A stretch of 64,000 bases of DNA, taken from positions 124,001 through 188,000 of the forward strand of contig NZ_JACYTQ010000002.1 in NCBI RefSeq assembly GCF_014841125.1, read 5' to 3'. This document shows, in pieces, positions 1 to 41,241 of the stretch (position 1 is the first letter of the stretch; the number at the start of each line of letters is the position of its first letter). This stretch comes from Echinicola arenosa (GTDB taxonomy: Bacteria > Bacteroidota > Bacteroidia > Cytophagales > Cyclobacteriaceae). The notes below the pieces were generated by a model. That model did not search any database and was not told where the DNA came from. It saw nothing but the letters and a program-made list of their open reading frames with translations. The position numbers and the translations under genes were made by a program.

Positions 1-483
1 TTACGTGCAGAAGCTTATTACTGGAAAGGAGACTTACAAAACGCCGCAGCCGATGTAAACGCGGTTAGAACCCGTGCTAAATGTGATCCTTATACAGCTT
101 CAGACATCAACATTGGGACCATTTTGGATGAGAGAGCGCGAGAGTTATTTTATGAAGAACCCAGGAAAACGGAGCTGACAAGAATTTCCTACATCTTCGC
201 CAAAACCGGAAAAGCGGCGTATAACGGAAAGTCTTACAGTGAAGACAACTTTGCTGATGATAACTTCTATTATGATCGCATGATGGAAAAAACAGATTAT
301 TACAACAAGGGCGTATTCACTATCCATGGTGACACTTATACACTAAGTCCCTACCACGTGCTATGGCCAATTCCTGCTGATGCCATTAATTCAAACACCA
401 GAGGAAGAATCAATCAAAACGAAGGATATGCTGGTTTTGAAAATAATATACCTCCTCTAACCACTATCGAGGAAACAGAATAA
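1..483 (+). CDS. RagB/SusD-family outer-membrane lipoprotein, C-terminal part only
   Basis: The reading frame is open from base 1, so the gene begins before the window and only the last 160 residues are seen. The fragment has the C-terminal SusD signature: an [11 protein letters not shown] helix, an AVRTRAK segment, then [19 protein letters not shown]. SusD proteins are surface lipoproteins that bind glycans and cap a SusC TonB-dependent transporter, so a susC gene probably lies just upstream outside the window. The next gene, an NHL-propeller protein, starts 184 bases later on the same strand, which links this uptake pair to the cytochrome/DUF1501 locus that follows. Family assignment is confident; the substrate is unknown. 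Confidence 0.9.
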
Positions 484-632
484 ATCATCAAATCATAAAC
501 TTGAAACCTCCATTGGCTTAATTTTATTCAGGCCGATGGAGTGTTTTCATTTTAATAGTGGATCAGGTTTAATGCCGCTCACATAAAACATCTTAGTTAT
601 ATTGTAATAAGCTATTAAAAAAATTAATTTGA

Positions 633-646
633 AGGTCTAAAGACCT
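633..646. promoter_or_regulatory. Inverted repeat AGGTCT-AA-AGACCT upstream of the first NHL gene
   Basis: A perfect 6-bp inverted repeat with a 2-bp spacer ends 21 bases before the start codon at 668. Its position suits an operator or a short leader hairpin. No matching copy was noticed upstream of the second module, so a shared regulator is not supported. This is seen in sequence; the function is inferred. Confidence 0.35.
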
Positions 647-667
647 AATATACTATAGACCACTACC

Positions 668-1723
668 ATGTCAAAAGAAAATAACAACAATAGAAGACAG
701 TTTCTTAAATCCAGCTCTCTGTTGATGGCCACAGGGATTCTCTTTCCCAATATCAATTTTGGAAAAGCCCTTGATCCTGCAAGAGAAATCATTGGGCATG
801 GGGATTTTAAGTACCGTGTAAAAAAACAATGGGGTAATCAAGACCCTACAAAAATCCCTGTCAAAGATTGCCATGAGATGGTTCAGGATAAAAAAGGCAG
901 ATTGATTCTCCTGACCAATGAAACAAAGAACAATATTATTTTCTATGACCGTTCAGGAAAAGTGCTTAAAACTTGGGGACATGATTTCCCTGGCGCCCAT
1001 GGCTTAACTTTACACAACGAGGGAGGTGAAGAGTTCCTATATATCACTGACCATGACCGACACCAAGTCTTTAAAACCACATTGGATGGTAAAATCCTAC
1101 TGACACTCAACTATCCTAAAGAAACTGGCGTCTATGAGAAGCCAGAACAATACCGCCCTACCGAAATTGCTATTGGTCCCACTGGAGACATCTATGTAGC
1201 AGATGGATATGGATTAAGTTACATCACCCAGTATTCTCCAAAAGGTGAATATATCCGCCATTTCGGAGGCAAAGGGGAAGATCAAAGCAACCTCAAACAA
1301 GCCCATGGTATCTGTCTAGATACCCGAAAAACTGACCAACCAGAATTGATCATCACTTCCAGATTGGCCCATGAATTCAAAAGGTTTACTTTGGATGGTA
1401 ATCATTTGGAAACTGTTCCTGTAACTGGTTGTTGGATCAACAGGCCAGTGATCAAAGGACAAAACTTATATTTCTCTGTACTACGTACCGTAAGCAGGCA
1501 AGATTATGATGGACTCACCGTCGTCCTCGATAAAAACAACAAAGTTGTCTCTGCACCTGGAGGCTCTGCTCCCGAGTACATTGATGGCAAACTGCAAACC
1601 ATAGTTTACGATGGCCACACATTTATGAACCCTCATGATGTATGTATCGACAATGATGGAAACATCTACGTCCCTCAATGGAACTCTGAGCACACCTACC
1701 CTGTACAACTTGAAAGAGTATAG
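668..1723 (+). CDS. Tat-exported NHL-repeat beta-propeller protein (copy A)
   Basis: A 351-residue protein with a twin-arginine export signal (NRRQFLKSSSLL, residues 8-19) and a six-bladed NHL/SMP-30-like propeller covering most of the rest. It resembles proteins annotated as NHL-repeat or peptidyl-alpha-hydroxyglycine lyase-like. Blade motifs include GDIYVADGYG near residue 172 and NPHDVCIDNDGNIYVPQW near the C-terminus. His/Asp clusters such as FPGAHGLTLH and YITDHDRHQVF could bind metal. A close paralogue lies at 14532-15584. It is followed after 30 bases by the cytochrome gene at 1754 and probably shares a transcript with it. The catalytic role is not known; a secreted or periplasmic enzyme or binding propeller is inferred. 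Confidence 0.8.
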   Translation: MSKENNNNRRQFLKSSSLLMATGILFPNINFGKALDPAREIIGHGDFKYRVKKQWGNQDPTKIPVKDCHEMVQDKKGRLILLTNETKNNIIFYDRSGKVLKTWGHDFPGAHGLTLHNEGGEEFLYITDHDRHQVFKTTLDGKILLTLNYPKETGVYEKPEQYRPTEIAIGPTGDIYVADGYGLSYITQYSPKGEYIRHFGGKGEDQSNLKQAHGICLDTRKTDQPELIITSRLAHEFKRFTLDGNHLETVPVTGCWINRPVIKGQNLYFSVLRTVSRQDYDGLTVVLDKNNKVVSAPGGSAPEYIDGKLQTIVYDGHTFMNPHDVCIDNDGNIYVPQWNSEHTYPVQLERV

Positions 1724-1753
1724 TATAGTTTATTTAAATAACCGATTCTAACC

Positions 1754-4078
1754 GTGATCAACTTTAAGTCCTTCAAACGAATCATTCCCTTCGGCTTTAC
1801 AGGAGCCATGGCCATTTTGGTTTTGGGTCTTTCCTGTAATGATCAGGAAGATGAAAAAGTGGACTTTAATGCCGAAGTGAGGCCAATCATCAATAACAAG
1901 TGCATTTCCTGCCATGGAGGTGTAAAACAATCCGGAAAATTCAGTTTACTTTTTGAATCCGAGGCACTAGCCGCCACCAAATCAGGTGAGCCTGCCATCG
2001 TCCCTGGCCATGCCGATGAAAGTGAGATGATCAAAAGAATTCTCCATGAAGATCCCGAGGTAAGGATGCCACCGGAAGGCCCACCACTTGATCCCAAGGA
2101 AATAGACATTTTAAAAAAATGGATCAATCAAGGAGCCAAATGGGAAGATCACTGGTCTTTCATTCCGCCAACGGATAAAGAAATCCCCGAAATAAGCGAA
2201 TCAGGATGGACAGATAATCCAATCGATGCCTTTGTGTTGGAGAAAATGGAAGAAAAAGGACTATCACCTTCTCCACAAGCTCCCGCAGCGACCCTGGCAA
2301 GAAGACTGAGCTTAGACTTGACGGGGCTCCCGCCTACACCAGAAATGGTAAAAAAATTAGAAGAAAGTCCTGAATTGACGACATATGAAGAATTGGTTGA
2401 TGAGCTATTGGCCAGTCCACAGTACGGTGAACGCTGGGCAGCCATGTGGATGGACCTAGCCCGATATGCTGATACCAAAGGTTACCAAAAAGACCGTCAC
2501 CGCCCTATGTGGAAATTCCGAGACTGGGTTATTGATGCTTTCAATGCTGACATGCCCTTTGATCAGTTTACCATAGAGCAGATTGCAGGTGACTTGCTTC
2601 CAAACCCAAACAAGGATCAATTGATCGCCACTGGCTTCCATCGTAACACCATGACCAATGATGAAAGTGGTACCGACGATGAAGAATTTAGGGTGGCAGC
2701 AGTCCTGGATAGGGTCAACACCACTTGGGAAGTTTGGCAAGGCATTACATTTGCCTGTGTGCAATGCCACAGTCACCCCTATGACCCTATCAAACATGAA
2801 GAGTTCTATGAATTCTATGCCTTCTTCAACAATACGTCAGATGCCGACACCTGGACAGACAGCCCAACCATGCCTGTTTATACCAAAATCGAAGAGCAAG
2901 AACGGGCAAATATCCTACACTGGATTGACTCCGTAAAGAGTGCATCTCCAAAAACCAATTATCAATTTGCCCATCAAATCGAAGAAAAAGAAGCCGAATT
3001 AAAATCCATTCGACCCGACCCCTTGCCTGTCATGGAAGAATTGTCAGCTGATGAGCGACGACAAACCTTTGTCTTTGAAAGGGGCAACTGGATGGAACAT
3101 GGCAAAGAAGTACAACCTGGAGTCCCTGGTTCCATGCCTAAATTTTCAGACACCCTACCCAATAATCGCTTAGGCTTGGCCAAATGGATTGTGAGTGACG
3201 ACAACCCACTTACCGCTAGGGTAACAGTCAATAGAATTTGGGCCCAATTATTTGGACGAGGCATTGTAGAGACCCAAGAAGATTTTGGTTCACAAGGGTT
3301 TGAGCCTACCCATCCTGAACTTTTGGACTGGATGGCGGTCAACTGGATGAAGGAGCAGCATTGGCAACTTAAACCATTGCTGAAAATGATGGTCATGTCG
3401 GCCACCTATCGCCAGTCCTCCGAACTTAGCAAAGAGGCCTTGGATAAAGATGCCGCCAATTACTGGCTCAGCCGTGGCCCAAGAGTGCGCTTGACTGCCG
3501 AGCAAGTCAGGGACCAAGCTCTGGCTGTGAGTGGTTTGCTCAGCAAAAAAATGTTTGGGCCATCTGTAATGCCACCCCAGCCAGATGGTGTTTGGCAAGT
3601 CATCAACAACCCAGAAAAATGGATAGAAAGCAAAGGTGATGACAAGCACCGAAGAGGAATTTATACTTATTGGAGAAGAACAAGCCCCTATCCATCCATG
3701 GTCAGTTTTGATAGCCCCAGTCGTGAGTTTTGCGTCAACCGAAGGATTCGTACCAATACGCCATTACAAGCTTTGGTGACCATGAACGACCCTGTTTATG
3801 TGGAAGCGGCACAGGCCCTGGCCCTCAAAATGAAAGCTGCTGGCAGCACATTGGATGAGCAGCTGAAAGAAGGTTATGAATTGGCCCTGTTCAAGCAGCC
3901 GAAGCCTCAAGTGCTCAACTCTTTGAAAGAGCTCTATCAGACCGCATACCTACATTTTGAGGCCAATGGTGAAGGACTGGAAAACTTAGGAAAGCAAGAA
4001 ACAGATCCATCTATCAATGCCCTGACCATGGTTGCCAATTCCATCCTTAATTTGGACGGTTTCATTACAAAAGATTAA
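1754..4078 (+). CDS. PSCyt1-DUF1549-DUF1553 c-type cytochrome lipoprotein (copy A)
   Basis: A 774-residue protein of the planctomycete-type cytochrome family. The start codon is GTG and the signal peptide ends in a lipobox (GLSC, Cys28), so it is probably a lipoprotein. Domains in order are PSCyt1 (about 38-135, heme motif CISCH at 50-54, then MPPEGP), DUF1549/PSCyt2 (about 150-360, NPIDAFVLEKM... [16 protein letters not shown]), and DUF1553/PSD1 (about 470-770, [36 protein letters not shown]). A second CxxCH, CVQCH at 335-339, lies inside DUF1549. Such proteins are always paired with DUF1501 proteins, and the DUF1501 gene follows after 24 bases. The reaction is unknown; extracytoplasmic electron transfer linked to catabolism is inferred. 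Confidence 0.9.
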   Translation: MINFKSFKRIIPFGFTGAMAILVLGLSCNDQEDEKVDFNAEVRPIINNKCISCHGGVKQSGKFSLLFESEALAATKSGEPAIVPGHADESEMIKRILHEDPEVRMPPEGPPLDPKEIDILKKWINQGAKWEDHWSFIPPTDKEIPEISESGWTDNPIDAFVLEKMEEKGLSPSPQAPAATLARRLSLDLTGLPPTPEMVKKLEESPELTTYEELVDELLASPQYGERWAAMWMDLARYADTKGYQKDRHRPMWKFRDWVIDAFNADMPFDQFTIEQIAGDLLPNPNKDQLIATGFHRNTMTNDESGTDDEEFRVAAVLDRVNTTWEVWQGITFACVQCHSHPYDPIKHEEFYEFYAFFNNTSDADTWTDSPTMPVYTKIEEQERANILHWIDSVKSASPKTNYQFAHQIEEKEAELKSIRPDPLPVMEELSADERRQTFVFERGNWMEHGKEVQPGVPGSMPKFSDTLPNNRLGLAKWIVSDDNPLTARVTVNRIWAQLFGRGIVETQEDFGSQGFEPTHPELLDWMAVNWMKEQHWQLKPLLKMMVMSATYRQSSELSKEALDKDAANYWLSRGPRVRLTAEQVRDQALAVSGLLSKKMFGPSVMPPQPDGVWQVINNPEKWIESKGDDKHRRGIYTYWRRTSPYPSMVSFDSPSREFCVNRRIRTNTPLQALVTMNDPVYVEAAQALALKMKAAGSTLDEQLKEGYELALFKQPKPQVLNSLKELYQTAYLHFEANGEGLENLGKQETDPSINALTMVANSILNLDGFITKD

Positions 4079-4102
4079 GCAAAAAACTCTAAACACCCTG
4101 TC

Positions 4103-5593
4103 ATGAACTTGTTTGAAGAAGTTATTTATAAAAATGCAGAACTGAATACAAGAAGACATTTTCTAAAAAAATGTCTCTCAGGTATGGGAGGATTGGCGCT
4201 TGGTTCACTTTTGGGAAGTTCATTGACTAGTTGTGGCAGCAATGATCCAACAGGTCAAATGGCTGACCTGAACAATCCCATGAAAGCCTTGCCCAGCCAT
4301 TTTATCCCCAAGGCCAAAAGGGTGATTTACCTGCACATGGCTGGAGCCCCATCACAGCTGGAGCTTTTCGACTTCAAACCTGAACTACAGAAACTCAACG
4401 GACTTGATTGTCCTCCTTCCCTTTTGGAAGGAAAAAGGTTCGCCTTTATTCAAGGCACACCCCAAATGTTAGGCCCTCAATATCAGTTCAAGCAATATGG
4501 CCAATCTGGTGCTTGGGTATCTGACCGCTTACCTTACTTTTCCCAAAATGTAGATGATGTGAGCTTTCTAAAGGCCATGCACACTGATGAATTCAACCAT
4601 GCTCCTGCCCAACTTTTGATGCAGACTGGCAGCGCGAGACTAGGCAAGCCAAGTATTGGTTCTTGGGTCACTTATGGGCTGGGATCTGAAAACCAAAACC
4701 TACCGGGCTTTGTGGTTTTTGTATCAGGTGGAACAACCCCTAGTGCGGGTAAAAGTATATGGGGAAGTGGCTTTCTCCCAACTGTTTACCAAGGAGTACA
4801 GTGCAGGTCCAAAGGTGACCCAGTACTCTATCTTTCTGACCCAAAGGGAGTCAGCAGGGAGTTGAGAGAAAAAACCATTGACATCATCAATGATATTAAC
4901 CGTCAGCAATATCAGGAAGTGGGCGATCCAGAAATCATGACCCGAATTTCACAATATGAAATGGCTTTTAAAATGCAAGTGTCTGTCCCCGAAACCATGG
5001 ACATTTCGGATGAGCCGAAATATATCCACGAAATGTACGGTACGGAACCTGGCAAATCATCCTTTGCCAACAACTGCCTTTTGGCAAGAAGGTTGGCTGA
5101 AAAGGGTGTACGTTTTATACAGCTCTACCATTATGGTTGGGATTCCCATGGCTCCAACCAAAAAGAATCCCTCCACCACGGCTTCAATGACCGCTGTCAG
5201 GAGGTGGACAAGCCCATGTCCGCACTGCTACAAGATCTGAAGCAAAGAGGATTGTTGGATGATACCTTGGTGATCTGGGGCGGAGAGTTTGGCAGAACAC
5301 CCATGCGCGAAAACCGTGGCGGGAAAGAAATGAAATTTCAAGGCAGGGATCATCACTTGGAAGCCTTTACCATCTGGATGGCTGGTGGTGGTGTCAAGCC
5401 TGGCCTTTCTTATGGTGAAACAGATGAAATTGGCTATTATGGAATTAAAGACCGCGTCCACGTTCATGACCTACAAGCTACCATACTTCACCTTTTAGGT
5501 ATGGACCATGAAAAATTGACTTACCAATTTCAAGGTAGGGACTTTAGGCTAACTGATGTACATGGAAATGTTGTCGAAAAAATCATTGCCTAG
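4103..5593 (+). CDS. DUF1501 protein, Tat lipoprotein (copy A)
   Basis: A 496-residue DUF1501 protein, a family distantly related to the alkaline phosphatase/sulfatase fold. The N-terminus has NTRRHFLKK (residues 15-23), a hydrophobic stretch and a lipobox-like LTSC (Cys44), indicating Tat export and lipid anchoring. Conserved family segments are [14 protein letters not shown] (about 76-89), [24 protein letters not shown] and [17 protein letters not shown], which supply the Asp/His residues expected of a metal site. It lies 24 bases after its partner cytochrome gene, the usual arrangement for this family. A paralogue lies at 11415. The substrate is unknown. Confidence 0.9.
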   Translation: MNLFEEVIYKNAELNTRRHFLKKCLSGMGGLALGSLLGSSLTSCGSNDPTGQMADLNNPMKALPSHFIPKAKRVIYLHMAGAPSQLELFDFKPELQKLNGLDCPPSLLEGKRFAFIQGTPQMLGPQYQFKQYGQSGAWVSDRLPYFSQNVDDVSFLKAMHTDEFNHAPAQLLMQTGSARLGKPSIGSWVTYGLGSENQNLPGFVVFVSGGTTPSAGKSIWGSGFLPTVYQGVQCRSKGDPVLYLSDPKGVSRELREKTIDIINDINRQQYQEVGDPEIMTRISQYEMAFKMQVSVPETMDISDEPKYIHEMYGTEPGKSSFANNCLLARRLAEKGVRFIQLYHYGWDSHGSNQKESLHHGFNDRCQEVDKPMSALLQDLKQRGLLDDTLVIWGGEFGRTPMRENRGGKEMKFQGRDHHLEAFTIWMAGGGVKPGLSYGETDEIGYYGIKDRVHVHDLQATILHLLGMDHEKLTYQFQGRDFRLTDVHGNVVEKIIA

Positions 5594-5867
5594 ATATTCG
5601 CAACGGGATTATTCAGTACTACAGACTTTATTCCCAACTAATAGAAAAAGAAAGTTTTCAAAAGAAAAATACTTATATTAACTATCGAAAACCCCATACG
5701 AGACTTGCTTATAATATATTTTTGTTAAATTGCTATATCAACCTTTTTGTAGTGTAAGTCACAGGCGTTTGATTGGACTGATTTGACCAAGGGCTTTTAT
5801 CTTGACACGCGTGACTCCACTTCAAAATCATGAAAGTTGAAATGGCTTTTGCAAAGCCCAAATATAC

Positions 5868-8813
5868 ATGAGCAACAAGAAACAAATAACATCCTCTTCT
5901 CCCTACTTAAAGGCTGCGGTTCTTTCTGTACTAAAATGGTGTTTTTGTTTATTCTTCCTTTTTAGTTTCGAAGTCCAAGCTCAAAAACACCTGAACCTGT
6001 ATCAATTGCCCCTGGAAGGCCTGAGCGATGTGGAAGTTCAATCCATTTATCAGGATCATTATGGCTTTCTTTGGTTTGGTACAGCCAATGGGCTCAATCG
6101 ATTTGATGGGCAAAAATACATTCATTTTTCATATCAGGACGGAAATGAAAGCAGCTTATCCAGCAATCAGGTGAATGCCATCATCGAAGATGGAAAAAAC
6201 AACTTGTGGGTTGGGACTAAATATGGTCTCAACAAGTTTGATCGGAACACCAACACCTTTAAAAGGTACTTACCAGCAACCAATGACTCAAGTTCCATTC
6301 CCGGAAAAAACATTAAAGTACTGTTTCTTGACCAGTCCCAAAACCTTTGGATTGGAACCAATGAAGGGCTTTCCCAATATGATGCGGATGCTGATCAATT
6401 CATCAATTATTTCCATCAAGAGGGGAACCCTAACAGCCTGAGTGGCAACAGTGTCAATCAAATCATTCAGGACTCCAAAGGACGGCTTTGGGTTGGAACC
6501 AACTATTCGGGTGTTAGCCTTTTTGAACCCGAAAAGAATATTTTCATCAATTTCAAACATGAACCTTCAGATCCCGAAAGTCTTAGTGGAAACACCATCA
6601 TTTCCCTTTTTGAGGATAGCTATAAAAACATCTGGATAGGCACCATCAGAAATGGACTGAACAGGTTTGATGAAAGCACCCATACTTTCAAACATTATTC
6701 TCAAGGGAGTCACAGAGGAAGCCTTGCTACCAACTCTATCTATTCCATCACAGAAAATATGGATAGGAACCTGATTATTGGTGGAATGCAAGGCGGAATG
6801 AGTATTTATAACCGCAATACGGATACCTTTGTCAGGTACAATACCAAGGGACAAATCAACCTCAAAGGAAACACCGCCAGTGTACTGACCGACTTTATCA
6901 CCAAAGAAAAACAAATACTGATAGCAACCAGCAATGGCGGAGTAAATATCTATGATAACCACCCTAGTAATTTCATTACCTATCAGCAAAACCCAATTAA
7001 TGACCAGGGGTTGAGCATTGATCATGTCACCGCTTTACTGACTGATGATCGTGGACTGGTTTGGATCGGCACCAACGGCGGTGGACTGAACCAATTTGAC
7101 CCTGAAAGTGAAAAGTTTACCCACTTTCTCAAAAGCAACCAAAAGGGTTCATTGATGGATAACACCATCCTTTCCATTTCAAAATTCAATGGTAAAGATA
7201 TTTTATTACTCAACACCCAGTTGAACGGATTGGCCACCTACAACAGGTCCAATGGCCAGTTTAGCAATATCGATATTTCGCTTACTAATGCACAGGAAAC
7301 TAATATCATATCCATCGTGATCGACCAATTAAATAAAATATGGATCAGCACTGCTGAACAACTTTTTGTATTGAAAGATCTCAAGGCAAGTCCTGAAAAA
7401 ATCATTCAGTTAAAAGGAGAAGGAGACGAAACCTTCTCAAGCTTACTGGAAGATAAGAATGGGAACTTACTGGCTACCACCAACCTGGGCATCTACCAGA
7501 TCGAAAACACGTCAGCTTACCCTAGTTCTTTCCTGCCTTTTCCAAAGTCTCCCAATCAAAACTTTAACATAAATGGAATAACAGAAGACCCAAAAGGACA
7601 AATTTGGATCTTCACTCAGCAAGCGGGAATTTGGCGTTTGGAGGAGAAAAAATTCATCCAAATCCCAAGTGGATCCCTTGCCCAAAAACAAATCAGCAAC
7701 CTGTTTTTCATTGATGAGGCCCTATGGGTTACGGCTGACAATGGCTTATTTCGCTGTAAACTTAACAATGACTCCATCAACATTGTCAATCATTATACAC
7801 CTACAGACGGTTTGCCCAATAGTGTTTTTTCCAGAGGAGCGGTGGCCGAAAGTAAAGATGGACATTATTTCTTAGGCAGTTTGGGAGGCTTGAGTTCCTT
7901 TCATCCTGACAGCCTTCAGACCAACCCCAACATTCCTCCCATTGTGCTGACCAGTTTATCCATTGACAATAAAAAAGTCCCACAGGGAACCAAGGGGATA
8001 ATGGAAAGGGAAATCAACCAAATGGAACAGATCATACTTCCAGAAGGCAGCAATGATTTCAGTTTGTCCTTTGCCAGTCTGAACTATATCAAGCCTGAAA
8101 AAAACCAGTATGCGTATAAATTAGAAGGGATTGATGAAGACTGGACATATACTACCCATACTTCGGCCAACTATGTCGATTTACCACCTGGAAGTTATAC
8201 CTTTACAGTCAAAGGCAGCAATAATGATGGTTTGTGGAATGAAAATGGCCGATCCATCATAATCAAAGTCCCGGGAAGCTCCTATTTTAGCTCTTTTTGG
8301 CTGGTAGGTTTATTTATCCTTTTAGTCCTTTCAGGTGCTTTTATCTTTATCACCAAACAAAAACTTTCTCAACCCGACATTATTGTACCTCAAAAACACC
8401 CAGTCCCAAGACCAGTTTTGGAAGAAGGTGAAATAAGATCATTGGAAAGCAAGGAAGAGTCATCAGATGACTTCTTTGAAAGGGCCAAAGCCATTGTTTT
8501 GGACCACCTTCAGGAGGAATCATTTGATGTGAATATGCTGAGTCGGGAACTAGGAACCAGTCGTACCCAGCTTTACAGAAAATTCAAAGAAAACAATGGG
8601 GAAACAGTTTCTTCCTTTATTAAAGAAATCAAACTCAATAAAGCCCATCAGCTCTTAACCACCTGTCAATTTACCATCACGGAAGTATTCCAAATGTCCG
8701 GCTTCAAATCAGCTTCTCACTTCAGTAAATCCTTCCAATCAAGGTTCGGACAATCTCCTTCTGAATTAATGACCCAACACAAAAGAAAAACCAAGCAAAC
8801 AAGCCATTCCTAA
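5868..8813 (+). CDS. Membrane-spanning propeller/Y_Y_Y sensor fused directly to an AraC-type DNA-binding domain
   Basis: A 981-residue regulator. An N-terminal signal/TM segment (about 23-40) precedes two-component-propeller repeats (GFLWFGTANGLNRFD, NNLWVGTKYGLNKFD, KNIWIGTIRNGLNRFD and others). A Y_Y_Y domain (about 745-800) and one TM helix (about 810-828) follow. After a short cytoplasmic linker comes an AraC HTH domain (about 868-970, DVNMLSRELGTSRTQLYRKF). It resembles a hybrid two-component system, but no HisKA, HATPase or receiver domain lies between TM and HTH. It therefore appears to be a one-component membrane regulator sensing a periplasmic ligand. Its place between the two cytochrome/DUF1501 modules suggests it controls them and perhaps the upstream SusCD pair. 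Confidence 0.85.
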   Translation: MSNKKQITSSSPYLKAAVLSVLKWCFCLFFLFSFEVQAQKHLNLYQLPLEGLSDVEVQSIYQDHYGFLWFGTANGLNRFDGQKYIHFSYQDGNESSLSSNQVNAIIEDGKNNLWVGTKYGLNKFDRNTNTFKRYLPATNDSSSIPGKNIKVLFLDQSQNLWIGTNEGLSQYDADADQFINYFHQEGNPNSLSGNSVNQIIQDSKGRLWVGTNYSGVSLFEPEKNIFINFKHEPSDPESLSGNTIISLFEDSYKNIWIGTIRNGLNRFDESTHTFKHYSQGSHRGSLATNSIYSITENMDRNLIIGGMQGGMSIYNRNTDTFVRYNTKGQINLKGNTASVLTDFITKEKQILIATSNGGVNIYDNHPSNFITYQQNPINDQGLSIDHVTALLTDDRGLVWIGTNGGGLNQFDPESEKFTHFLKSNQKGSLMDNTILSISKFNGKDILLLNTQLNGLATYNRSNGQFSNIDISLTNAQETNIISIVIDQLNKIWISTAEQLFVLKDLKASPEKIIQLKGEGDETFSSLLEDKNGNLLATTNLGIYQIENTSAYPSSFLPFPKSPNQNFNINGITEDPKGQIWIFTQQAGIWRLEEKKFIQIPSGSLAQKQISNLFFIDEALWVTADNGLFRCKLNNDSINIVNHYTPTDGLPNSVFSRGAVAESKDGHYFLGSLGGLSSFHPDSLQTNPNIPPIVLTSLSIDNKKVPQGTKGIMEREINQMEQIILPEGSNDFSLSFASLNYIKPEKNQYAYKLEGIDEDWTYTTHTSANYVDLPPGSYTFTVKGSNNDGLWNENGRSIIIKVPGSSYFSSFWLVGLFILLVLSGAFIFITKQKLSQPDIIVPQKHPVPRPVLEEGEIRSLESKEESSDDFFERAKAIVLDHLQEESFDVNMLSRELGTSRTQLYRKFKENNGETVSSFIKEIKLNKAHQLLTTCQFTITEVFQMSGFKSASHFSKSFQSRFGQSPSELMTQHKRKTKQTSHS

Positions 8814-9093
8814 CCAAAAGCTCCCAAAAAGTACATTTGGAACAAATAAACAAGTGATTTGGGACAATAAGGAAAGCATTGAAGGGGAAAATTAAACATA
8901 TTTGTTCTTATATATAAACTGTCAACATCAGGCAAGGTAAGTCCTTTTCTTTTGATGAAAATTGGATATCGAGCTTGGTAACGAGAGTGGCTAATCTTGA
9001 TCATTCAAATTTTAAAATGACTTGACCTGATGCCATTTTCATCAATGTGTAGCAGACCGTTTGTAAAAAAAACATGCATCTTTTTCCCATGAT

Positions 9094-11394
9094 ATGAGAA
9101 GATATTTAATCGTACTGACTTGTTTAATTTATGCAGGAATGCTGAGTATAGCATCTTGTGATCATCAAGAAGAAAAAGTGGACTTTAATGCTGAAGTCCG
9201 CCCTATCCTAAACAGCAAGTGTATTACTTGCCATGGAGGGGTAAAACAATCTGGTGACTTTAGTTTGCTTTTTGAATCTGAAGCTTTGGCAGCCACTAAA
9301 TCCGGACATCCTGCCATCATTCCAGGTGATGCAGAAGGAAGTGAGATGATCAAAAGGATTTTGGAGGATGACCCAGAGCAGCGGATGCCTCCAGAAGGTC
9401 CAGCACTTAGCAAAGATGAAGTCAATATTCTAAAAAAATGGATCAACCAAGGCGCGAAATGGGAAGACCATTGGTCATTTGTCGCACCAGAAAAACCTGA
9501 ATTGCCTAAGGCTGACCTACAAGAATGGGAAGAAAATCCAATTGATCACTTTGTATTGGAAAAAATGGAAGAGAAAGGGCTTTCTCCTTCTCCACAGGCT
9601 GATGCCAACACTTTGGCAAGAAGACTGTCCCTTGACATTATTGGGCTTCCGCCTACTCCAGAGATGGTCCAAAAACTAAATAATGACCCTTCACTGGAGA
9701 ATTATGAAAGTCTAGTGGATGAACTTTTGGATGCCCCACAATTTGGAGAAAAATGGGCTTCCATGTGGTTGGATTTGGCCCGATATGCTGACTCCAAGGG
9801 CTATGAAAAAGATATGCATCGAGATATGTGGAAATACAGGGACTGGGTCATTAAAGCCTTTAATCAAGATATGCCTTTTGATCAGTTTACCATAGAGCAG
9901 TTGGCCGGAGACTTATTGCCCAGCCCAAGCAAAGACCAATTGATCGCCACAGGTTTCCACAGAAACACCATGACCAATGATGAAGGAGGTACTGATGATG
10001 AAGAGTTTCGTGTTGCTGCAGTTTTGGACAGGGTAAACACTACCTGGGAAGTTTGGCAAGGTATCACCTTTGCCTGTGTCCAATGCCATAGTCACCCCTA
10101 CGACCCCATAAAACATGATGAATACTATGAGTTTTATGCCTTTTTCAATAACACCGCCGATGAAGACAGTTATCCCGTTGAAAAACCTGTCATACCAGTA
10201 TATACCGAGGTGGATAACCAAAAAAGGGAAAAGCTTCTCAACTGGATAGACTCAGTCAAATCCCACAAAGTGAATTACCAGTTCGCCTCTACAATCAAAG
10301 AAAAAGAAGCAGAACTCAATGAAATCAAGCAATACACCTTACCGATTATGCAGGAACTTCCCGAGGAAGAAAGAAGGAAAACTTTTGTTTTTGAAAGAGG
10401 AAACTGGACTACCCATGGGAAGGAAGTGACTCCAGGTGTGCCTGGCTCCATGCCCAATTTGGAATCCAATACCAAACCTGACAGGCTTGCCATGGCCAAA
10501 TGGCTGGTGAGTGAAGAAAACCCATTAACTGCTAGGGTGACGGTCAACAGGATCTGGGGACAGTTATTTGGAAAAGGCATCGTGGAAACCCAAGAAGATT
10601 TCGGTTCTCAGGGAATTGAGCCTACCCATCCCGAGTTATTGGACTGGTTGGCCATCGAATGGATGCAAAAAGACCAATGGCACCTGAAGGCATTGATCAA
10701 AAGAATCGTGATGTCAGCCACCTATAGACAATCCTCAGAGGTAAGCCCGAAAACCCTTAAAATGGACGCTGCCAATGACTATTTATCCAGGGCACCAAGG
10801 GTGAGGCTATCTGCTGAGCAAGTCAGGGATCAGGCCTTGGCGGTCAGTGGCTTGTTGAGTGATAAAATGTACGGGCCCTCCGTGATGCCATACCAGCCAG
10901 AAGGTATCTGGCAAGCCGTATACAATGGTAGTTCATGGGAAAAAAGCAAAGGAGAAGACCAATACAGAAGAGCCGTCTACACCTACCTGAGAAGGACCAG
11001 TCCATATCCATCTATGACGGCTTTTGATGGGCCTAGCCGAGAGTTTTGTGTCAATCGAAGAATCGACACCAATACACCCCTACAAGCCTTGGTTACCCTA
11101 AATGATGCTGTATTTGTAGAAGCAGCACAAGAGGTTGCCAAGAAGATGTATAAAGCTGCAGACCAGACCAAAGATCAAATTATCTATGGTTACGAACTCG
11201 CACTTTTCCAATCTCCATCAGAAGAAGACATGAAGATCTTGATGGAACTTTATACCAATGCCCATTCTCATTTTGAGACTACTGGGGAAGGTCTGGAAAA
11301 CATGGACAATAAAACCACTGACCCTGCATTGAACTCGCTTACCGTGGTGGCCAATGCCATATTGAATTTGGACAAGTTCATCACCAAAAACTAA
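9094..11394 (+). CDS. PSCyt1-DUF1549-DUF1553 c-type cytochrome lipoprotein (copy B)
   Basis: A 766-residue paralogue of the protein at 1754-4078, alignable end to end with most residues identical by eye. The signal peptide ends at a lipobox-like IASC (Cys22). The PSCyt1 heme motif is CITCH (43-47), with MPPEGP about 55 residues later. The second CxxCH (CVQCH, about 328-332) is again present in DUF1549, and the C-terminal DUF1553 carries [20 protein letters not shown]. The clearest divergence is the linker near residues 370-420. The DUF1501 partner starts 20 bases downstream. Both heme motifs are kept, so the copy looks functional. Whether A and B differ in substrate or in partner DUF1501 cannot be told from sequence. 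Confidence 0.9.
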
Positions 11395-11414
11395 ACTCGC
11401 TAACAACTGATATC

Positions 11415-12908
11415 ATGAATATATTTGAGGAAGAACAATATAGACAGGCCGAACTCAATACCCGTCGACAATTCCTAAGGAAATGCATCTCAGGAATGGG
11501 AGGAATTGCTTTAGGTTCCTTAATGGGCAGTGCCCTGACCAGCTGTGGAAGCGACTCCACCAGCTCAGGACTGGTTAGAAGCAGTGATAATCCAATGGGA
11601 GCCCTTCCCTCCCACTTTTTACCCAAAGCCAAAAGGGTTATTTACCTCCATATGGCAGGGGCTCCTTCCCAGTTGGAATTATTTGACTACAAGCCTGAAC
11701 TTCAAAAACTGGACGGGCTGGATTGTCCTCCATCTCTTTTGGAAGGAAAAAGATTTGCCTTTATCAAAGGCACTCCTAAGATGCTCGGCCCTCAATTTAA
11801 CTTTGCCCAGCACGGCCAATCAGGGGCTTGGATGTCTGACCGCCTTCCCCATCTTTCAGGCTGTGTGGACGACATGACCTTCCTCAAGGCCATGCACACC
11901 AATGAATTCAACCATGCTCCTGCCCAGCTGCTGCTCCAAACCGGCAGTGCCCGATTGGGTAAGCCCAGCATGGGGTCTTGGGTCACTTATGGGCTAGGTT
12001 CTGAAAACCAAAACCTTCCTGGGTTCATGGTCTTGGTATCCGGAGGGAAAACCCCTAGTGCCGGTAAAAGTATCTGGGGCAGTGGATTCTTACCTACCGT
12101 CTATCAAGGGGTACAATGCCGCTCCAAAGGTGATCCTGTACTTTATCTTTCTGATCCAAAAGGGATGAGCAAGGCTTTGCGAGAGCAGTCCATCCAGGCC
12201 ATCAACAAGCTCAACCAAAAGCAATTTGAGGAGATCGGAGATCCTGAAATCATGACCCGTATTTCGCAGTATGAAATGGCCTTTAAGATGCAAACTTCTG
12301 TACCAGAAACCATGGATATCAAGGACGAACCAGAATACATCCATAAAATGTACGGTACCCAACCTGGCCAATCCTCCTTTGCCAACAATTGTCTTTTGGC
12401 TAGGAGGCTCGCAGAAAAAGGGGTCCGCTTTATCCAGCTTTACCACTGGGGATGGGATGCCCACGGAGCTGCTAAGAGTGAAGCGATCAACCATGGTTTC
12501 AAAGAGCGTTGCCATGAGGTAGATCAACCCATTGCAGCCCTACTGAAAGACCTCAAACAAAGAGGCCTTTTAGATGACACCTTGGTGGTATGGGGTGGCG
12601 AATTTGGCAGAACACCGATGAGAGAAAACCGAGGTGGTAAAGAAATGAAATTTGTAGGTCGTGACCATCACTTGGAAGCTTTCACTACTTGGATGGCCGG
12701 TGGCGGTATCAAACCAGGCATGACCTATGGTGAAACTGATGAAATTGGCTATTATGGTATCAAAGACCGTGTACATGTCCACGACCTTCAAGCAACCATC
12801 CTGCATCAGTTGGGACTGAACCATGAAAAGCTCACCTACCATTTCCAAGGTCGGGACTTTAGGCTGACCGATGTACATGGGGAAGTGGTGAAAAAAATCA
12901 TTGCCTAA
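11415..12908 (+). CDS. DUF1501 protein, Tat lipoprotein (copy B)
   Basis: A 497-residue paralogue of the protein at 4103, with NTRRQFLRK (residues 15-23) and an LTSC lipobox (Cys44). The family segments [38 protein letters not shown] and [17 protein letters not shown] are intact. It is translated 20 bases downstream of its cytochrome partner, and the DUF2231-cytochrome gene follows after 59 bases. Module B therefore has four genes in a row (cytochrome, DUF1501, DUF2231-cyt-LRR, NHL), while module A has three in a different order (NHL, cytochrome, DUF1501). Confidence 0.9.
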
Positions 12909-12967
12909 TTGAACTATAATGACCTTGAATAGTATCTTCATCGACTGATAACAATATTCCCATAAGC

Positions 12968-14488
12968 ATGAGAAAGACCGTTTACCTATTATTGATTTTT
13001 CAACTGATTACCATTCCTATTTTATATGCACAAGGTGTGGGTGCTGCTGCAGAAGAAACTTCAGACCTATGGTTGTTTATCGGCCGCTTCCACCCTTTGA
13101 TCGTACATTTGCCAATTGGTTTTATCATGCTTGCTTTCCTGATGGAAGTCATGGCGAGGTGGCCCAAATTCAAACATTTGGAACAAAGTGTTTCCTTTGT
13201 CCTGACCTTGGGTATATTGAGTTCGGTCGGTGCCGCGGTCTTTGGCTATCTGCTTTCCCTCAGTGGGGAATACCAAGGCAGCACCTTGGATTGGCACCTA
13301 TGGCTGGGCTTGTCCACCTTGGGTTTTGCTATTATTGCCTTGGTGTTAAAAGTAAAGCAGGCCAATACTGCCTACTTCACCTTTCTATCGGCCAGTGTCA
13401 TTTGCCTGACCTTGACAGGTCACCTTGGCGGTAACCTCACCCATGGTTCGGATTATTTGGTACGCTACATGCCCAACAGCCTTAGGGCCATGACGGGTAT
13501 GCCACCCAAGCCAGAGAGCAAGCGCAAACCCATTACCAATCTGGAAGAAGCCATTGTCTTTGATGACCTGATCAAGCCCATCACGGACAACAGCTGCGAA
13601 AGCTGCCACAATGCCGAAAAGACAAAGGGAAACCTTAGGCTGGATACCAAAGAAGGATTCCTTAAAGGGGGTGAAAATGGCCCATCACTGGTGCCCGGAC
13701 AAGCAGCCCACAGTGAGCTGATCAAAAGGGTTAAACTCCCCAAAGACCATGAGGATGTGATGCCTCCTGAAGGTAAAAAGCCCTTGACCAAAGAGGAAAT
13801 TGCCCTGCTGGAATGGTGGATCAATAATGATGCTTCCTTTGACAAAAAAATCGCCGAAGTGGAAGTCCCTGATGATATCAAGGAAATCCTTGATGCCTTG
13901 GTTAATCCACAGCAATCCAGCTTGAGCCCTCTTTATGCCATGGAGATCAAGCCTGCTTCTAAAGATGAGGTAGAAACACTAAAAGATATGGGTTTTTCCG
14001 TTTCTCCTATTTCTGCCGAAAGCCCATTTATCCAAGTGAGTTATTTGATTTCAGGACAACCTCTGAACGAAGAAAGCATAAAGGCCCTAAAAAAGGTGGC
14101 CAAGCAAACCACTTGGCTTAATCTGGGCAAGGCAGCCTTGGCAGATGGGCAGAAATTCACCTTCCTGAAAGACTTCAACCACTTGACCCAGTTGCATTTG
14201 GAAAAAACTGCCATCACGGATGAAGAAGTAAAGAACCTGGTCCAAATGGAATTTCTGGAATACCTGAACCTGTACAACACCGCCATTACGGACAAAAGTG
14301 TGGAACCTCTCACCGCTCTGAAAAGGTTAAGAAAGATCTACCTTTGGGAGACCCAAGTGAGTGAAGATGGAAAATCTTCCCTGCAAAAGGCCATCCCTGA
14401 GTTGGCCATTATCGCTGATGGACTTCCCCAAAACTTTGATGTCCCTTTGGACTCCCTCAATGACAGTACCGTCATTGCCGCCAAATAA
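12968..14488 (+). CDS. DUF2231 membrane domain - cytochrome c (PSCyt1-like) - leucine-rich repeat fusion
   Basis: A 506-residue protein. A signal peptide (about 1-22) is followed by a DUF2231-type membrane domain with about four TM helices (residues 40-155; FHPLIVHLPIGFIML is the diagnostic segment). A cytochrome c domain of PSCyt1 type follows, with CESCH at 210-214 and VMPPEGKKPLT about 50 residues later. The C-terminal part (about 375-480) has leucine-rich repeats (LTQLHLEKTAITDEEV, LEYLNLYNTAITDKSV). The layout suggests a membrane-anchored heme protein whose LRR tail binds a partner. It could pass electrons between the module's soluble cytochrome and the membrane; this is inference. The gene is part of module B and has no counterpart in module A. 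Confidence 0.85.
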   Translation: MRKTVYLLLIFQLITIPILYAQGVGAAAEETSDLWLFIGRFHPLIVHLPIGFIMLAFLMEVMARWPKFKHLEQSVSFVLTLGILSSVGAAVFGYLLSLSGEYQGSTLDWHLWLGLSTLGFAIIALVLKVKQANTAYFTFLSASVICLTLTGHLGGNLTHGSDYLVRYMPNSLRAMTGMPPKPESKRKPITNLEEAIVFDDLIKPITDNSCESCHNAEKTKGNLRLDTKEGFLKGGENGPSLVPGQAAHSELIKRVKLPKDHEDVMPPEGKKPLTKEEIALLEWWINNDASFDKKIAEVEVPDDIKEILDALVNPQQSSLSPLYAMEIKPASKDEVETLKDMGFSVSPISAESPFIQVSYLISGQPLNEESIKALKKVAKQTTWLNLGKAALADGQKFTFLKDFNHLTQLHLEKTAITDEEVKNLVQMEFLEYLNLYNTAITDKSVEPLTALKRLRKIYLWETQVSEDGKSSLQKAIPELAIIADGLPQNFDVPLDSLNDSTVIAAK

Positions 14489-14531
14489 TTGAATACTTTG
14501 AATAGCGCTAATAGCCATTGATTACCAAAAC

Positions 14532-15584
14532 ATGAAGAAGAAAAACCAAGTTGACCGAAGGAATTTTATAAAATCCAGCTCTGCCCTAGTAACCTCCAGC
14601 TTTTTACTGCCCAATATCAATTTTGGAATGAGCAAAAACCCAGAAGATGAAATCATCGGGCATGGTGACTTCAAATACAAAGTCAACAAAAACTGGGGCA
14701 CACAAGACCCCGCCAAGTACCCTGTAAAAGACTGTCATGAGATGGTACAGGACAAGCAGGGCCGATTGATCCTGCTTACCAATGAAACCAAAAACAATGT
14801 CATCTTCTATGACCGCTCCGGTAAAATCCTCAAAACCTGGGGCAATGACTTCCCGGGTGCCCATGGCCTGACCTTGCATGAAGAAGGTGGAGAGGAATTC
14901 CTTTATATCACCGATCATGACCGTCATCAAGTTTTTAAGACGACCTTGGACGGTAGGATCCTTTTGGTATTGGACTACCCCAAAGAGACAGGCATGTATG
15001 AAGGGCCCAGCCAATACAAACCTACCGAAACCGCTATCGGCCCCAATGGCGATATCTATGTCGCAGATGGTTATGGCAAAAGCTACGTCATCCAATACTC
15101 CCCCAAAGGAGAATATATCCGTCACTTTGCCGGACAAGGCAATGGAGAGGCGCAGGTCAAGCAAGCCCATGGCGTATGTTTGGATACCCGAAAAGGAACA
15201 CCTGAGCTTTTGGTCACTTCCCGTGCAGCCCAGGAATTTAAGCGCTTCAACCTGAATGGTGAACATTTGGAAACCATCACCACACCCGGTGCCTGGATCT
15301 GTCGTCCGGTGATCAAAGGAGACAACCTTTACTTTGCCGTGATTGTCTCCAAAAGCTGGGAGAATTACGATGGCTTTGTGATGGTCTTGGACAAAGACAA
15401 TAAAGTGGTGTCTTCACCAGGTGGTACCAAGCCTACCTATGTAGATGGCAAGCTTCAAGTCAGCGAACATGTAGGCCAGACCTTTATGAATCCCCATGAT
15501 GTTTGCATTGACCAAGATGAAAATATCTATGTCCCCCAGTGGGCCTCCGAAAAAACTTACCCGATCCTATTGGAAAGGGTTTAA
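14532..15584 (+). CDS. Tat-exported NHL-repeat beta-propeller protein (copy B)
   Basis: A 350-residue paralogue of the protein at 668-1723, highly similar throughout. The Tat motif DRRNFIKSSS (about residues 7-16) is followed by the same propeller, with FPGAHGLTLHEEGGEEF, YITDHDRHQVFKTTLDG and FMNPHDVCID. It begins 43 bases after the DUF2231-cytochrome gene, and a strong intrinsic terminator follows at 15608, so it closes the module B transcript. In module A the NHL gene is first; here it is last, so the two modules are not a simple tandem duplication. Confidence 0.85.
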   Translation: MKKKNQVDRRNFIKSSSALVTSSFLLPNINFGMSKNPEDEIIGHGDFKYKVNKNWGTQDPAKYPVKDCHEMVQDKQGRLILLTNETKNNVIFYDRSGKILKTWGNDFPGAHGLTLHEEGGEEFLYITDHDRHQVFKTTLDGRILLVLDYPKETGMYEGPSQYKPTETAIGPNGDIYVADGYGKSYVIQYSPKGEYIRHFAGQGNGEAQVKQAHGVCLDTRKGTPELLVTSRAAQEFKRFNLNGEHLETITTPGAWICRPVIKGDNLYFAVIVSKSWENYDGFVMVLDKDNKVVSSPGGTKPTYVDGKLQVSEHVGQTFMNPHDVCIDQDENIYVPQWASEKTYPILLERV

Positions 15585-15607: not shown

Positions 15608-15635
15608 GGTCCTCGCTTGCAGCGAGGACCTTTTT
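15608..15635 (+). terminator. Intrinsic terminator after the second NHL gene
   Basis: A 10-bp perfect stem (GGTCCTCGCT / AGCGAGGACC) with a 3-base TGC loop, followed directly by five T residues. It ends the + strand transcript of the cytochrome/DUF1501 locus. Confidence 0.9.
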
Positions 15636-15673: not shown

Positions 15674-16708
15674 TTAGCTTGGAGATACTGCATAGAGGAT
15701 CAAGGGAGCTTCTTTTCCTTTGAGAGGAATACTTCCCATCTGCTCAAAGTGGAAAGTATTAGTTTCCAAGTCTTGCTTTAGCAGGCTTGAAATCAACAGT
15801 TCTTGTCCTAGGACATTGCATTGGCCTTGGATACGGGCGGCGGTGTTGATGGTATCACCGTGAAAGGCAATTTCTTTTTTAAATTTCCCTACCTCGGTCA
15901 TTGTCACCACACCCGCATGAAGACCTGCTTTGAAATGGGGCAGGCAACCGTACTGTCGATGATAATAATCCTGCTTGGTCGCCAGTTGCTGCTTAAAGTT
16001 AAAAAAGGCTTTCAGGCAATTTTGGTATTTAAGCCCATCCTCTAGCTTCCAGAAGAGGATTGCTTCATCACCCACATATTGATAGATCTCCGCATCATTT
16101 TCAGCCACAATGCCCAGGTCATTGAAACAGTCCTGAATTAATTTGCTGTATTGAATATGCCCTAGCCTTTCGGCATGTGTGGTGGACGATTGAAGGTCCA
16201 AAAACATAAAGATCCGTTCTACTTCCCTTGGGGTATAGAATTTTCCCCGAAATAGTTGCCACAGGTTATCCCCTCCAAAATAAAGCTGGACTTGTCGAAG
16301 GGCAAACATCAGCCCATCGACCACCACAATATAAAAGTAGATGGCAAAGCTTCCCGGTTCGAAAGCAAATTCCAAATAGCTGATTTCCTCACCAAAAATC
16401 CAATAGGCCAAGGAAACCATAGCCCAAAGAAATAAGATGACATAACCGAGCCTTGCTGCCAAAAGGCCCTGCAGGGACATTTTCATATAGCCATGCTTTT
16501 CGGTTAAAATCTGGGCAAAACCTGAAAGAGCTCCAAAGATCATCCCACCGATCAAGGACACCCAAATGGCTTTGCCCAACTCAAATTTTACCGAGCCCAA
16601 CTCCTCCGTACCTTCTCCCCGCACAATACTCAAAAAAATAAAGGCCAGACACCACCCCAATATATACTGTCTTTTAATGGCCCACTTTCGTTTGTTTCGA
16701 AATTTCAT
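15674..16708 (-). CDS. Membrane-bound class III adenylate/guanylate cyclase
   Basis: A 344-residue protein. The N-terminal half has about four TM helices (residues 17-30, 48-68, 85-105, 118-138). The C-terminal half is a class III nucleotidyl cyclase domain (about 162-344). Metal-binding aspartates are visible in FMFLDLQSST (Asp171) and YVGDEAILFW (Asp214), and the GDTINTAARIQGQC segment is intact. It should make cAMP or cGMP in the cytoplasm; the substrate cannot be fixed by eye. It converges with the NHL gene upstream and stands alone on its strand. The N-terminal membrane domain resembles those of small Bacteroidota cyclases of unknown signal. Confidence 0.85.
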   Translation of the reverse strand: MKFRNKRKWAIKRQYILGWCLAFIFLSIVRGEGTEELGSVKFELGKAIWVSLIGGMIFGALSGFAQILTEKHGYMKMSLQGLLAARLGYVILFLWAMVSLAYWIFGEEISYLEFAFEPGSFAIYFYIVVVDGLMFALRQVQLYFGGDNLWQLFRGKFYTPREVERIFMFLDLQSSTTHAERLGHIQYSKLIQDCFNDLGIVAENDAEIYQYVGDEAILFWKLEDGLKYQNCLKAFFNFKQQLATKQDYYHRQYGCLPHFKAGLHAGVVTMTEVGKFKKEIAFHGDTINTAARIQGQCNVLGQELLISSLLKQDLETNTFHFEQMGSIPLKGKEAPLILYAVSPS

Positions 16709-20668: not shown

Positions 20669-21373
20669 TTAACAACCCTGCCCGTAATAGGCATCTTTTC
20701 CATGCTTCCGTTCAAAGTGCTTTTTGATCAAAGCATCTTTCAAACGAGGTGCATTAGGGTTAATTTGAAGGGTAAGATAAGCCATTTTTGCTACTTCCTC
20801 CAAGACTTTGCTATTATAAACTGCCTTATCAGCATTTTTGCCCCAAGTAAAAGGCCCATGGTTTCCTACCAAGATCATTTCCACTTCTTGATAGTCCAGT
20901 CCTTTCTCCGCGAAGCAGTCTAAAATCTGCTTTCCGGTCATGTGTTCGTAATCTCCCGCGATCAGCTCATCAGCCATGGGAGGGGCACACGGAATATCCT
21001 TGGTCAGGTGATCCGCATGGGTGGTACCAAAAATAGGAACGTCCATTTGTGCTTGCGCCCAAGAAACTCCATAAAGTGAATGCGTATGCACTATCCCTCC
21101 GATGTGCTCCCACTCCTTGTACAAGTAAGCGTGAGTTTTCGTATCGGAAGAAGGCCTTAGCACTCCCTCCACTATCTTAGCTTCAAAATCACAAATTACT
21201 ATATCTTCTGCCTTTAGTTTTTCGTAAGGTACGCCACTGGGCTTGATGGCAAATACGCCTTCATTTCTGTCCACTGCACTAACATTTCCAAAAGTATATA
21301 CCACCAAATCCAGCTTGGGCAGCTGCATATTGGCTTCGTAACATTCTCTCTTTAGCTCAATAAATTTACTCAT
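20669..21373 (-). CDS. araD: L-ribulose-5-phosphate 4-epimerase
   Basis: A 234-residue class II aldolase/adducin-fold enzyme of normal length for AraD. Zinc ligands are visible in VHTHSLYG (His96, His98) and VGNHGPFTWGK (about residue 172), and SSDTKTHAYLY carries the aspartate near residue 77. It converts L-ribulose 5-phosphate to D-xylulose 5-phosphate, the last specific step of arabinose catabolism. It is first in an operon with galM. The upstream gap to the divergent histidine kinase gene holds a near-copy of the arabinose palindrome. The ribulokinase lies 17 kb away; araA was not found in the window. Confidence 0.93.
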   Translation of the reverse strand: MSKFIELKRECYEANMQLPKLDLVVYTFGNVSAVDRNEGVFAIKPSGVPYEKLKAEDIVICDFEAKIVEGVLRPSSDTKTHAYLYKEWEHIGGIVHTHSLYGVSWAQAQMDVPIFGTTHADHLTKDIPCAPPMADELIAGDYEHMTGKQILDCFAEKGLDYQEVEMILVGNHGPFTWGKNADKAVYNSKVLEEVAKMAYLTLQINPNAPRLKDALIKKHFERKHGKDAYYGQGC

Positions 21374-38407: not shown

Positions 38408-38496
38408 GGTTTTATTATTTGAGATTATTACCAATTGATGGATAACAGATGAATCGAGCCTTAAGCATTTCCATCTATTTACTGATCCAAATTAAC

Positions 38497-40044: not shown

Positions 40045-40071
40045 GATATTATGAGGTTTATTGGTTATTAA

Positions 40072-40086: not shown

Positions 40087-40106
40087 TTTTTATTTTAATT
40101 GAAAAA

Positions 40107-41221: not shown

Positions 41222-41241
41222 ATCATTAACTTTTAAAAAAG

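Follow-up and report, generated by a model that had tools for sequence, protein, structure and literature searches.

A duplicated diheme PSCyt/DUF1501 gene cassette with its own regulator in an arabinan-type locus of Echinicola arenosa

Results

Gene content and duplication of the cassette

We analyzed a 64,000-nucleotide stretch of the Echinicola arenosa genome (C12:124001-188000, hereafter the window; host genome 5.39 Mb, 20 contigs), which begins with a cassette of putatively exported diheme proteins of PSCyt1-PSCyt2-PSD1 architecture, each encoded next to a DUF1501 protein. The cassette is doubled, lies in arabinan-type surroundings, keeps its order in related genomes and is separable from the susCD pair that precedes it. 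A Pfam scan and an open reading frame check of the window recovered every cassette gene named in an initial annotation of this DNA, each as an open frame on the + strand and in the order first given. The features are as follows.

1-483 (+): 3' end of susD (PF07980, 118 bits), a facultative neighbour outside the cassette
503-547 (+): hairpin just 3' of susD, terminator-like, with a weak U-run
633-646 (+): palindrome AGGTCTAAAGACCT, candidate operator, in the leader of the first NHL gene
668-1723 (+): NHL protein 1, resembling peptidyl-alpha-hydroxyglycine alpha-amidating lyase (PAL); twin-arginine-type leader; 72% identical to NHL protein 2
1754-4078 (+): PSCyt1-PSCyt2-PSD1 protein A, with a lipoprotein-type leader and CxxCH motifs at residues 50 and 335
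4103-5593 (+): DUF1501 protein A; twin-arginine-type leader and lipobox-like Cys
5868-8813 (+): putative one-component regulator, propeller-Y_Y_Y-AraC HTH; hydrophobic stretch at about residues 810-833
9094-11394 (+): PSCyt1-PSCyt2-PSD1 protein B, with a lipoprotein-type leader and CxxCH motifs at residues 43 and 328
11415-12908 (+): DUF1501 protein B; model resembles alkaline-phosphatase/sulfatase folds
12968-14488 (+): DUF2231-PSCyt1-LRR membrane cytochrome; CxxCH at residue 210; LRR match below cut-off
14532-15584 (+): NHL protein 2, PAL-like; twin-arginine-type leader
15608-15630 (+): strong terminator-like hairpin closing the cassette (z -4.44)
17881-18864 (+): GH43 arabinofuranosidase/xylosidase-type hydrolase, downstream neighbour
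19480-20646 (-): aldose 1-epimerase, galM type
20669-21373 (-): L-ribulose-5-phosphate 4-epimerase AraD (PRK08193, 360 bits, cut-off 257)

The duplication reported in the initial annotation is borne out by protein identities between copies of 71% (PSCyt), 81% (DUF1501) and 72% (NHL). Both PSCyt proteins carry the Pfam domains PSCyt1, PSCyt2 and PSD1 in that order along with two heme c motifs (CxxCH), a single such motif is present in the DUF2231 protein, and PF07394 covers both DUF1501 proteins in full (523 and 532 bits, positions 1-390 of 390). The leaders of PSCyt A and B contain a lipobox-like cysteine followed by acidic residues, while those of the DUF1501 and NHL proteins are of the RR-x-F type; the genome also has genes for TatC and for cytochrome c assembly. 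The earlier proposal is supported as to exported heme proteins and twin-arginine-type leaders on the DUF1501 and NHL proteins.

Intergenic gaps of 184, 274 and 280 nt occur at three places, compared with 20-59 nt elsewhere in the set, which is therefore probably divided into several transcription units. The gap sizes suggest three: NHL1-PSCytA-DUF1501A, the regulator alone, and PSCytB-DUF1501B-DUF2231-NHL2. Quick trees, with SH-aLRT support only and with long branches flagged, place PSCyt A and B in two clades (SH-aLRT 93 and 86), each of which holds an E. pacifica protein, which suggests a duplication predating the sampled species. The nearest named relatives of the PSCyt proteins come from Echinicola salinicaeni (85%), E. 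shivajiensis (81%) and E. pacifica (66%), and some of the Echinicola species with the cassette are named public records.

The cassette is separable from susCD

The initial annotation regarded SusCD as the importer of this gene set and called for a reading of the gene upstream of base 1. That gene is a complete susD (L001:16645-18483) starting about 1.36 kb before base 1, and it is preceded by susC (L001:13512-16613, TIGR04056, 744 bits), giving a susC-susD pair with glycosidases nearby, as is typical of a SusCD polysaccharide utilization locus. The hairpin that follows the susD stop codon (503-547) has a z-score of -4.57, with none of 200 shuffles as good, although it is missing from a consensus terminator scan and its U-run is weak, so that read-through from susD is possible. 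At the same post-susD place, strong hairpins of different sequence occur in G002, G005 and G008, and hence in 4/4 susD-linked genomes. Moreover, G005, which has the linked susD, and G006, which does not, are identical over the 88 nt preceding the first NHL gene, indicating that the cassette carries its own leader.

Across a genus sample of 11 Echinicola genomes (the host and ten others), PSD1 proteins are found in nine and an orthologous SusD (E <= 1e-100) in six. The ortholog adjoins the cassette in only half of the eight cassette loci outside E. pacifica (the host, G000, with G002, G005 and G008); it lies away from the cassette in G003 and G007, 3 Mb off in the latter, and was not found at this threshold in G004, G006 and G009. 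It is thus missing or distant in 4/8 cassette genomes, or 5/9 when E. pacifica is counted. In wider Bacteroidota, where the initial annotation had proposed a search for co-occurrence, SusD is uncommon: it was found in 5/49 loci (own model, at least 40 bits) and SusC-like genes in 8/49, by models built from few of our own proteins that distant members may escape. A check of 13 genomes with these models placed SusD in 3/13 loci (L012, L046, L052), against 1.2 expected by chance. We accordingly rejected SusCD as a general partner of the cassette.

These results bear on the first proposal, in which SusCD and the cassette form one operon for polymer import and oxidation. The pair is indeed adjacent and co-directional in four genomes, read-through past a weak terminator would join the two, and a second type of cassette (described below) shares a 20-kb stretch with a SusC-like gene in 9/9 Echinicola genomes, a pattern that speaks against separating SusCD and favours a tie to TonB-dependent import, although the nine trace to one ancestral locus. 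Set against this are the hairpins in all four linked genomes, the leader kept without susD, the absence or distant position of the SusD ortholog in half of the genomes, and the rarity of SusD in wider Bacteroidota loci, which together make a single operon unlikely. The outcome that the initial annotation itself named as fatal, a SusD operon ending at 483 with separate control, is largely what we find, with a hairpin and a separate leader in place and only the weak U-run leaving room for read-through. The SusD at base 1 therefore reads as an optional neighbour.

In L108 of G007 and L100 of G003, where the orthologs of the base-1 SusCD pair lie off the cassette, they adjoin a gene for a protein of 866-869 aa, for which the G007 copy gave only a sub-threshold PhoD match.

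An arabinan-type neighbourhood

The initial annotation stated that nothing here is a classical hydrolase, which is true only within 1-15584, as GH43-type genes flank both sides. Upstream, five GH43/arabinosidase-type genes lie 4.9-10.6 kb from base 1 and match gly43N, a solved endo-arabinase (5c0p) or BAD1527, the match to the BAD1527 alpha-arabinofuranosidase model being far below its cut-off. Downstream, the closest solved structure to the GH43 protein at 17881-18864 is gly43N, a xylosidase/arabinofuranosidase (E 2e-129). All eight non-pacifica Echinicola cassette genomes have an arabinosidase-type gene (L001:12117-13115 type) upstream and a GH43 gene (17881-18864 type) downstream, and AraD is present in 6/8, the stretches for G008 and G009 ending inside galM; the epimerase and AraD are thus constant too as far as the stretches reach. 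E. pacifica has two cassettes of this type on other contigs, one of them preceded by a GH43-CBM6 gene and a regulator. The catabolic half of the earlier oxidative catabolic reading is thus supported by the setting, whereas its tie to the SusCD importer is not.

Regulator and candidate operator

In the Pfam scan, only propeller-type, Y_Y_Y and AraC HTH families exceed their cut-offs in the protein encoded at 5868-8813, and no histidine kinase or receiver domain was detected. With its order of propeller, Y_Y_Y, hydrophobic stretch and AraC HTH, the protein looks like a one-component membrane regulator, as first proposed, and differs from hybrid two-component regulators, which possess kinase and receiver domains. 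Membrane regulators of this type are often tied to glycan sensing. The sequence AGGTCTAAAGACCT at 633-646 is a perfect 14-bp palindrome with a similar core in four other Echinicola; with two mismatches allowed, its matches in the window are no more than expected by chance. It is a possible operator for the adjoining AraC-type regulator.

Conserved heme sites in the diheme PSCyt proteins

We aligned 59 of 78 fetched PSCyt proteins (700-1100 aa, with those >85% identical removed) with three of our own, 62 in total. Heme site 1 is intact in 60/62, the other two being gapped there, and heme site 2, C328-x-x-C-H332-x-H334, is invariant in 62/62, as are Met98 and many charged residues. Inserts of 41-262 residues between PSCyt2 and PSD1 occur in 25/61 relatives, and among 23 long homologues eight contain CBM6, one Laminin_G_3 and one F5/8 type C. 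These domains were positioned in L051 and L074, where they fall between PSCyt2 and PSD1 (the L051 CBM6 spans 420-547), and the CBM6 inserts suggest a carbohydrate substrate.

An AlphaFold model of PSCyt B, built from the 62 sequences, has a mean pLDDT of 90.7 and a pTM of 0.91. A Foldseek search of the PDB with this model returned no chain at E <= 0.001 (best E 1.4; query-normalised TM-score <= 0.10). The same search missed the cytochrome c domain of the model, so that the lack of a match is no proof of a new fold, and the predicted fold may be new. By sequence, the best PDB match was the FoxE cytochrome tail, at E 0.034, and a viral fold library gave no matches at E <= 0.001. The missing PDB relative of the main diheme protein by Foldseek adds to its interest.

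Homology to fatty acid cis/trans isomerase (PF06934) was considered and rejected, as the match of the window protein is confined to residues 86-146, in the cytochrome tail; a PF06934 search of 296 Bacteroidota genomes gave no matches at E 1e-20 with the controls silent too, and is hence uninformative.

In passages of He et al. 2017 (PMC5615132), PSCyt genes are described with fusions to CBM and with sulfatases as neighbours, and a carbohydrate role for these genes is proposed there. As far as those passages go, the planctomycete genes resemble the Echinicola set in that PSCyt and PSD domains are joined in a single protein, relatives have CBM fusions, an unknown family is encoded nearby and a carbohydrate role is suspected. 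The Echinicola set differs in that it belongs to Bacteroidota, is doubled, has its own regulator and PAL-like NHL and DUF2231-cytochrome partners, and lies in an arabinan locus.

DUF1501, NHL and DUF2231 partners

The AlphaFold model of DUF1501 B is of middling confidence (pLDDT 79, pTM 0.79). Foldseek matched it to 130 PDB chains at E <= 0.001, down to 2e-6 with probability 1.00, the 50 best of which are sulfatases, LtaS-type proteins and relatives with TM-scores of 0.26-0.45; the predicted fold thus resembles the alkaline-phosphatase superfamily at a low overall TM-score. In a weak alignment (E 0.02-0.04), the Asp-His metal-ligand pair of LtaS is replaced by Gly395-Glu396, so that this ligand pair appears to be absent from DUF1501 and an altered active site is possible. 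Glu396 is invariant in 43/43 homologues.

In the NHL proteins, the comparison with PAM aligns His585, Tyr654, His786 and Asp787 with His111, Tyr181, His322 and Asp323 of NHL protein 2, all four invariant in 13/13 homologues. The similarity to PAL is remote (41 bits), and the segment with His786 and Asp787 alone scores at most 0.7 bits. In PAL, His585 and His786 bind zinc, Asp787 binds calcium and Tyr654 is catalytic; His690, Arg533 and Arg706 of PAL fall outside the NHL alignment, and His213 and Arg231 are candidates for them by position only. The NHL proteins thus appear to share an NHL propeller and four aligned site residues with PAL, from which they differ in being bacterial, exported and found in a glycan context.

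For the DUF2231-cytochrome, an alignment of 17 of 30 non-redundant fetched proteins with two of our own shows His42, His47 and His110, located at membrane helices, and the CxxCH at 210 to be invariant in 19/19. The protein has several hydrophobic helices, and one guess is that b-heme is bound at its membrane histidines.

Distribution and a second cassette type

We surveyed the best 80 of 167 loci from named records, assigning them to phyla manually by record title (with L020, from an uncultured bacterium, under PVC/other). A PSCyt gene is adjacent to and followed by a DUF1501 gene in 46/49 Bacteroidota, 15/26 PVC/other (20 of which have room for the next gene) and 4/5 Acidobacteriota loci. Among the 49 Bacteroidota loci, 30 include the DUF2231-cytochrome and 13 an NHL protein, three of these 13 being Echinicola. 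In some Chitinophagaceae and Saprospiraceae loci (L009, L013, L016, L022 and L023 among them), the NHL gene lies between the DUF1501 and DUF2231-cytochrome genes, a position that makes it a true member of the set there. The wider Bacteroidota core is accordingly, as read from gene order, a PSCyt protein followed by DUF1501, often with the DUF2231-cytochrome and sometimes with a PAL-like NHL protein. Within Echinicola, G004, G007 and G009 have a rearranged cassette (L101, L106, L113) in the order PSCytB-NHL-PSCytA-one DUF1501-DUF2231. We found no paper treating DUF1501, NHL/PAL and DUF2231 together in the open-licence literature searched, which leaves the novelty of the combination not proven.

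A second cassette type, on contig C4 of the host, has a PSCyt protein 42% identical to that described here and adjoins a GH29 fucosidase. Among nine Echinicola genomes, a close GH29 homologue lies within about 3 kb of this type in 6/9, and the stretches read contain FecR with a SusC-like gene in 7/9 and a SusC-like gene in 9/9. GH29 was also found in 3/35 other Bacteroidota loci, where 0.54 would be expected (Poisson estimate, P about 0.016), and in three of ten NHL-bearing loci against 0.17 expected (Poisson, post hoc).

PSD1 proteins are encoded in 57/98 sampled genomes of the host's family, so that "planctomycete-specific" is a misnomer. With up to 14 PSD1 matches per genome in this one Bacteroidota family, PSCyt/PSD1 and DUF1501 proteins are abundant, and a cassette tied to one sugar neighbourhood (arabinose) and to its own regulator offers a defined candidate substrate class and partner set for tests of their function.

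Discussion

Proposed function and alternatives

We propose that the cassette is a two-copy, cytochrome-linked oxidative module acting on arabinose-containing glycan fragments, accessory to a GH43-based arabinan/arabinose locus and with its own regulator and transcription, a reading to which we assign a probability of roughly 0.4. The PSCyt lipoprotein and DUF1501 would act together as an enzyme pair, either periplasmic or on the cell surface. The reaction would take place at the PSCyt2 heme site, with its invariant CxxCHxH and many invariant charged residues, and electrons would leave through the PSCyt1 heme to the DUF2231 membrane cytochrome and on to respiration. The PAL-like NHL protein may act on an oxidised intermediate or product, and the GH43 enzymes, the epimerase and AraD would consume the freed sugar. 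While the location and conservation of the genes are observed, we infer every catalytic step. In favour of the proposal are the constant arabinosidase-type and GH43 flanks, the PSCyt-DUF1501 gene pairing, the conserved heme sites, the CBM6 and similar domains in long homologues, the GH29 genes near other loci, the genomic TatC and cytochrome c assembly genes, and the observations of He et al. 2017. The surroundings, with SusCD, GH43-type enzymes and regulators, are those of Bacteroidota polysaccharide utilization loci, from which the cassette differs in being separable from its SusCD and in having redox proteins instead of hydrolases.

Several observations weigh against this proposal. The reaction is unproven and, as the initial annotation held, we know of no established reaction for PSCyt/PSD1 or DUF1501 proteins, nor for any other member of the set; the Pfam scan found no classical sugar oxidoreductase domain in the cassette proteins. 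The Echinicola cassettes derive from few ancestral loci, so that the 8/8 conservation of arabinosidase-type flanks does not represent eight independent events. The second cassette type sits beside a fucosidase, which would make arabinose the substrate of the present copy only, and the GH29 excess was tested after the pattern had been seen. Carbohydrate genes are present, not dominant, around 19 other Bacteroidota loci: a scan of 83 of 246 listed neighbour proteins gave fucosidase 4, GH20 2 and SusD-type 2-3 (among the first 25 of 155 families). Lastly, with as many as 14 PSD1 matches in a genome, the surroundings are known for a minority.

The cassette might instead be a general respiratory or electron-export module that merely happens to be located in an arabinan locus, its substrate being something other than a glycan. 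Its wide spread, through more than half of the family genomes and into PVC and Acidobacteriota loci with mixed neighbours, would suit such a role, as would the hydrophobic helices of the DUF2231-cytochrome; the constant arabinan surroundings within the genus, the GH29 excess and the CBM insertions would not, and a membrane regulator of a type associated with glycan sensing also argues for a sugar-related function. The presence of several sets in one genome, too, suits substrate-specific enzymes more than a single respiratory chain. We consider this alternative fairly unlikely. Less probable still is a dedicated maturation pair, in which the diheme PSCyt protein would resemble MauG and oxidatively modify DUF1501, itself a sulfatase- or phosphatase-like enzyme on a decorated glycan. 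The frequent PSCyt-DUF1501 gene pairing in all three groups of loci, the alkaline-phosphatase/sulfatase-like fold of DUF1501 with its possibly altered Gly395-Glu396 site (a weak alignment) and the two heme motifs per PSCyt protein are what such a pair would predict. Against it, two PSCyt proteins stand beside one DUF1501 in the rearranged cassettes, the PSCyt model had no Foldseek match, MauG included (in a search that missed the cytochrome domain too), and CBM6 in PSCyt relatives suggests that PSCyt contacts the sugar directly.

Within the proposed oxidative module, a more specific chemistry can be imagined by analogy to PHM and PAL, which act likewise on peptides: a diheme enzyme of new fold would oxidise the sugar, a PAL-like zinc propeller would split the hemiacetal-type intermediate, and DUF1501 would remove or transfer a substituent. 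This is a speculative idea that we think improbable; if true, such an oxidative-lyase route would stand apart from hydrolases, polysaccharide lyases and copper lytic polysaccharide monooxygenases.

Further genes around the cassette

A further arabinan-type set lies in the window at 36722-47067 (-), with an FGGY kinase, GH43, SusD, a SusC-sized gene and a protein with an alpha-L-arabinofuranosidase C-terminal domain; the part from FGGY to SusD occupies 36.7-43.9 kb. Upstream of the window, at L001 370-6007 (-), a second SusCD pair precedes a gene for a 3-keto-disaccharide hydrolase domain protein (PF06439), a set kept in G005 and G006. Electrons for the cassette could come from a 3-keto pathway. 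Convergent to the cassette, the gene at 15674-16708 (-) encodes an adenylate/guanylate cyclase catalytic domain (PF00211), and a homologue occupies the same place in G002, G005, G006 and G008.

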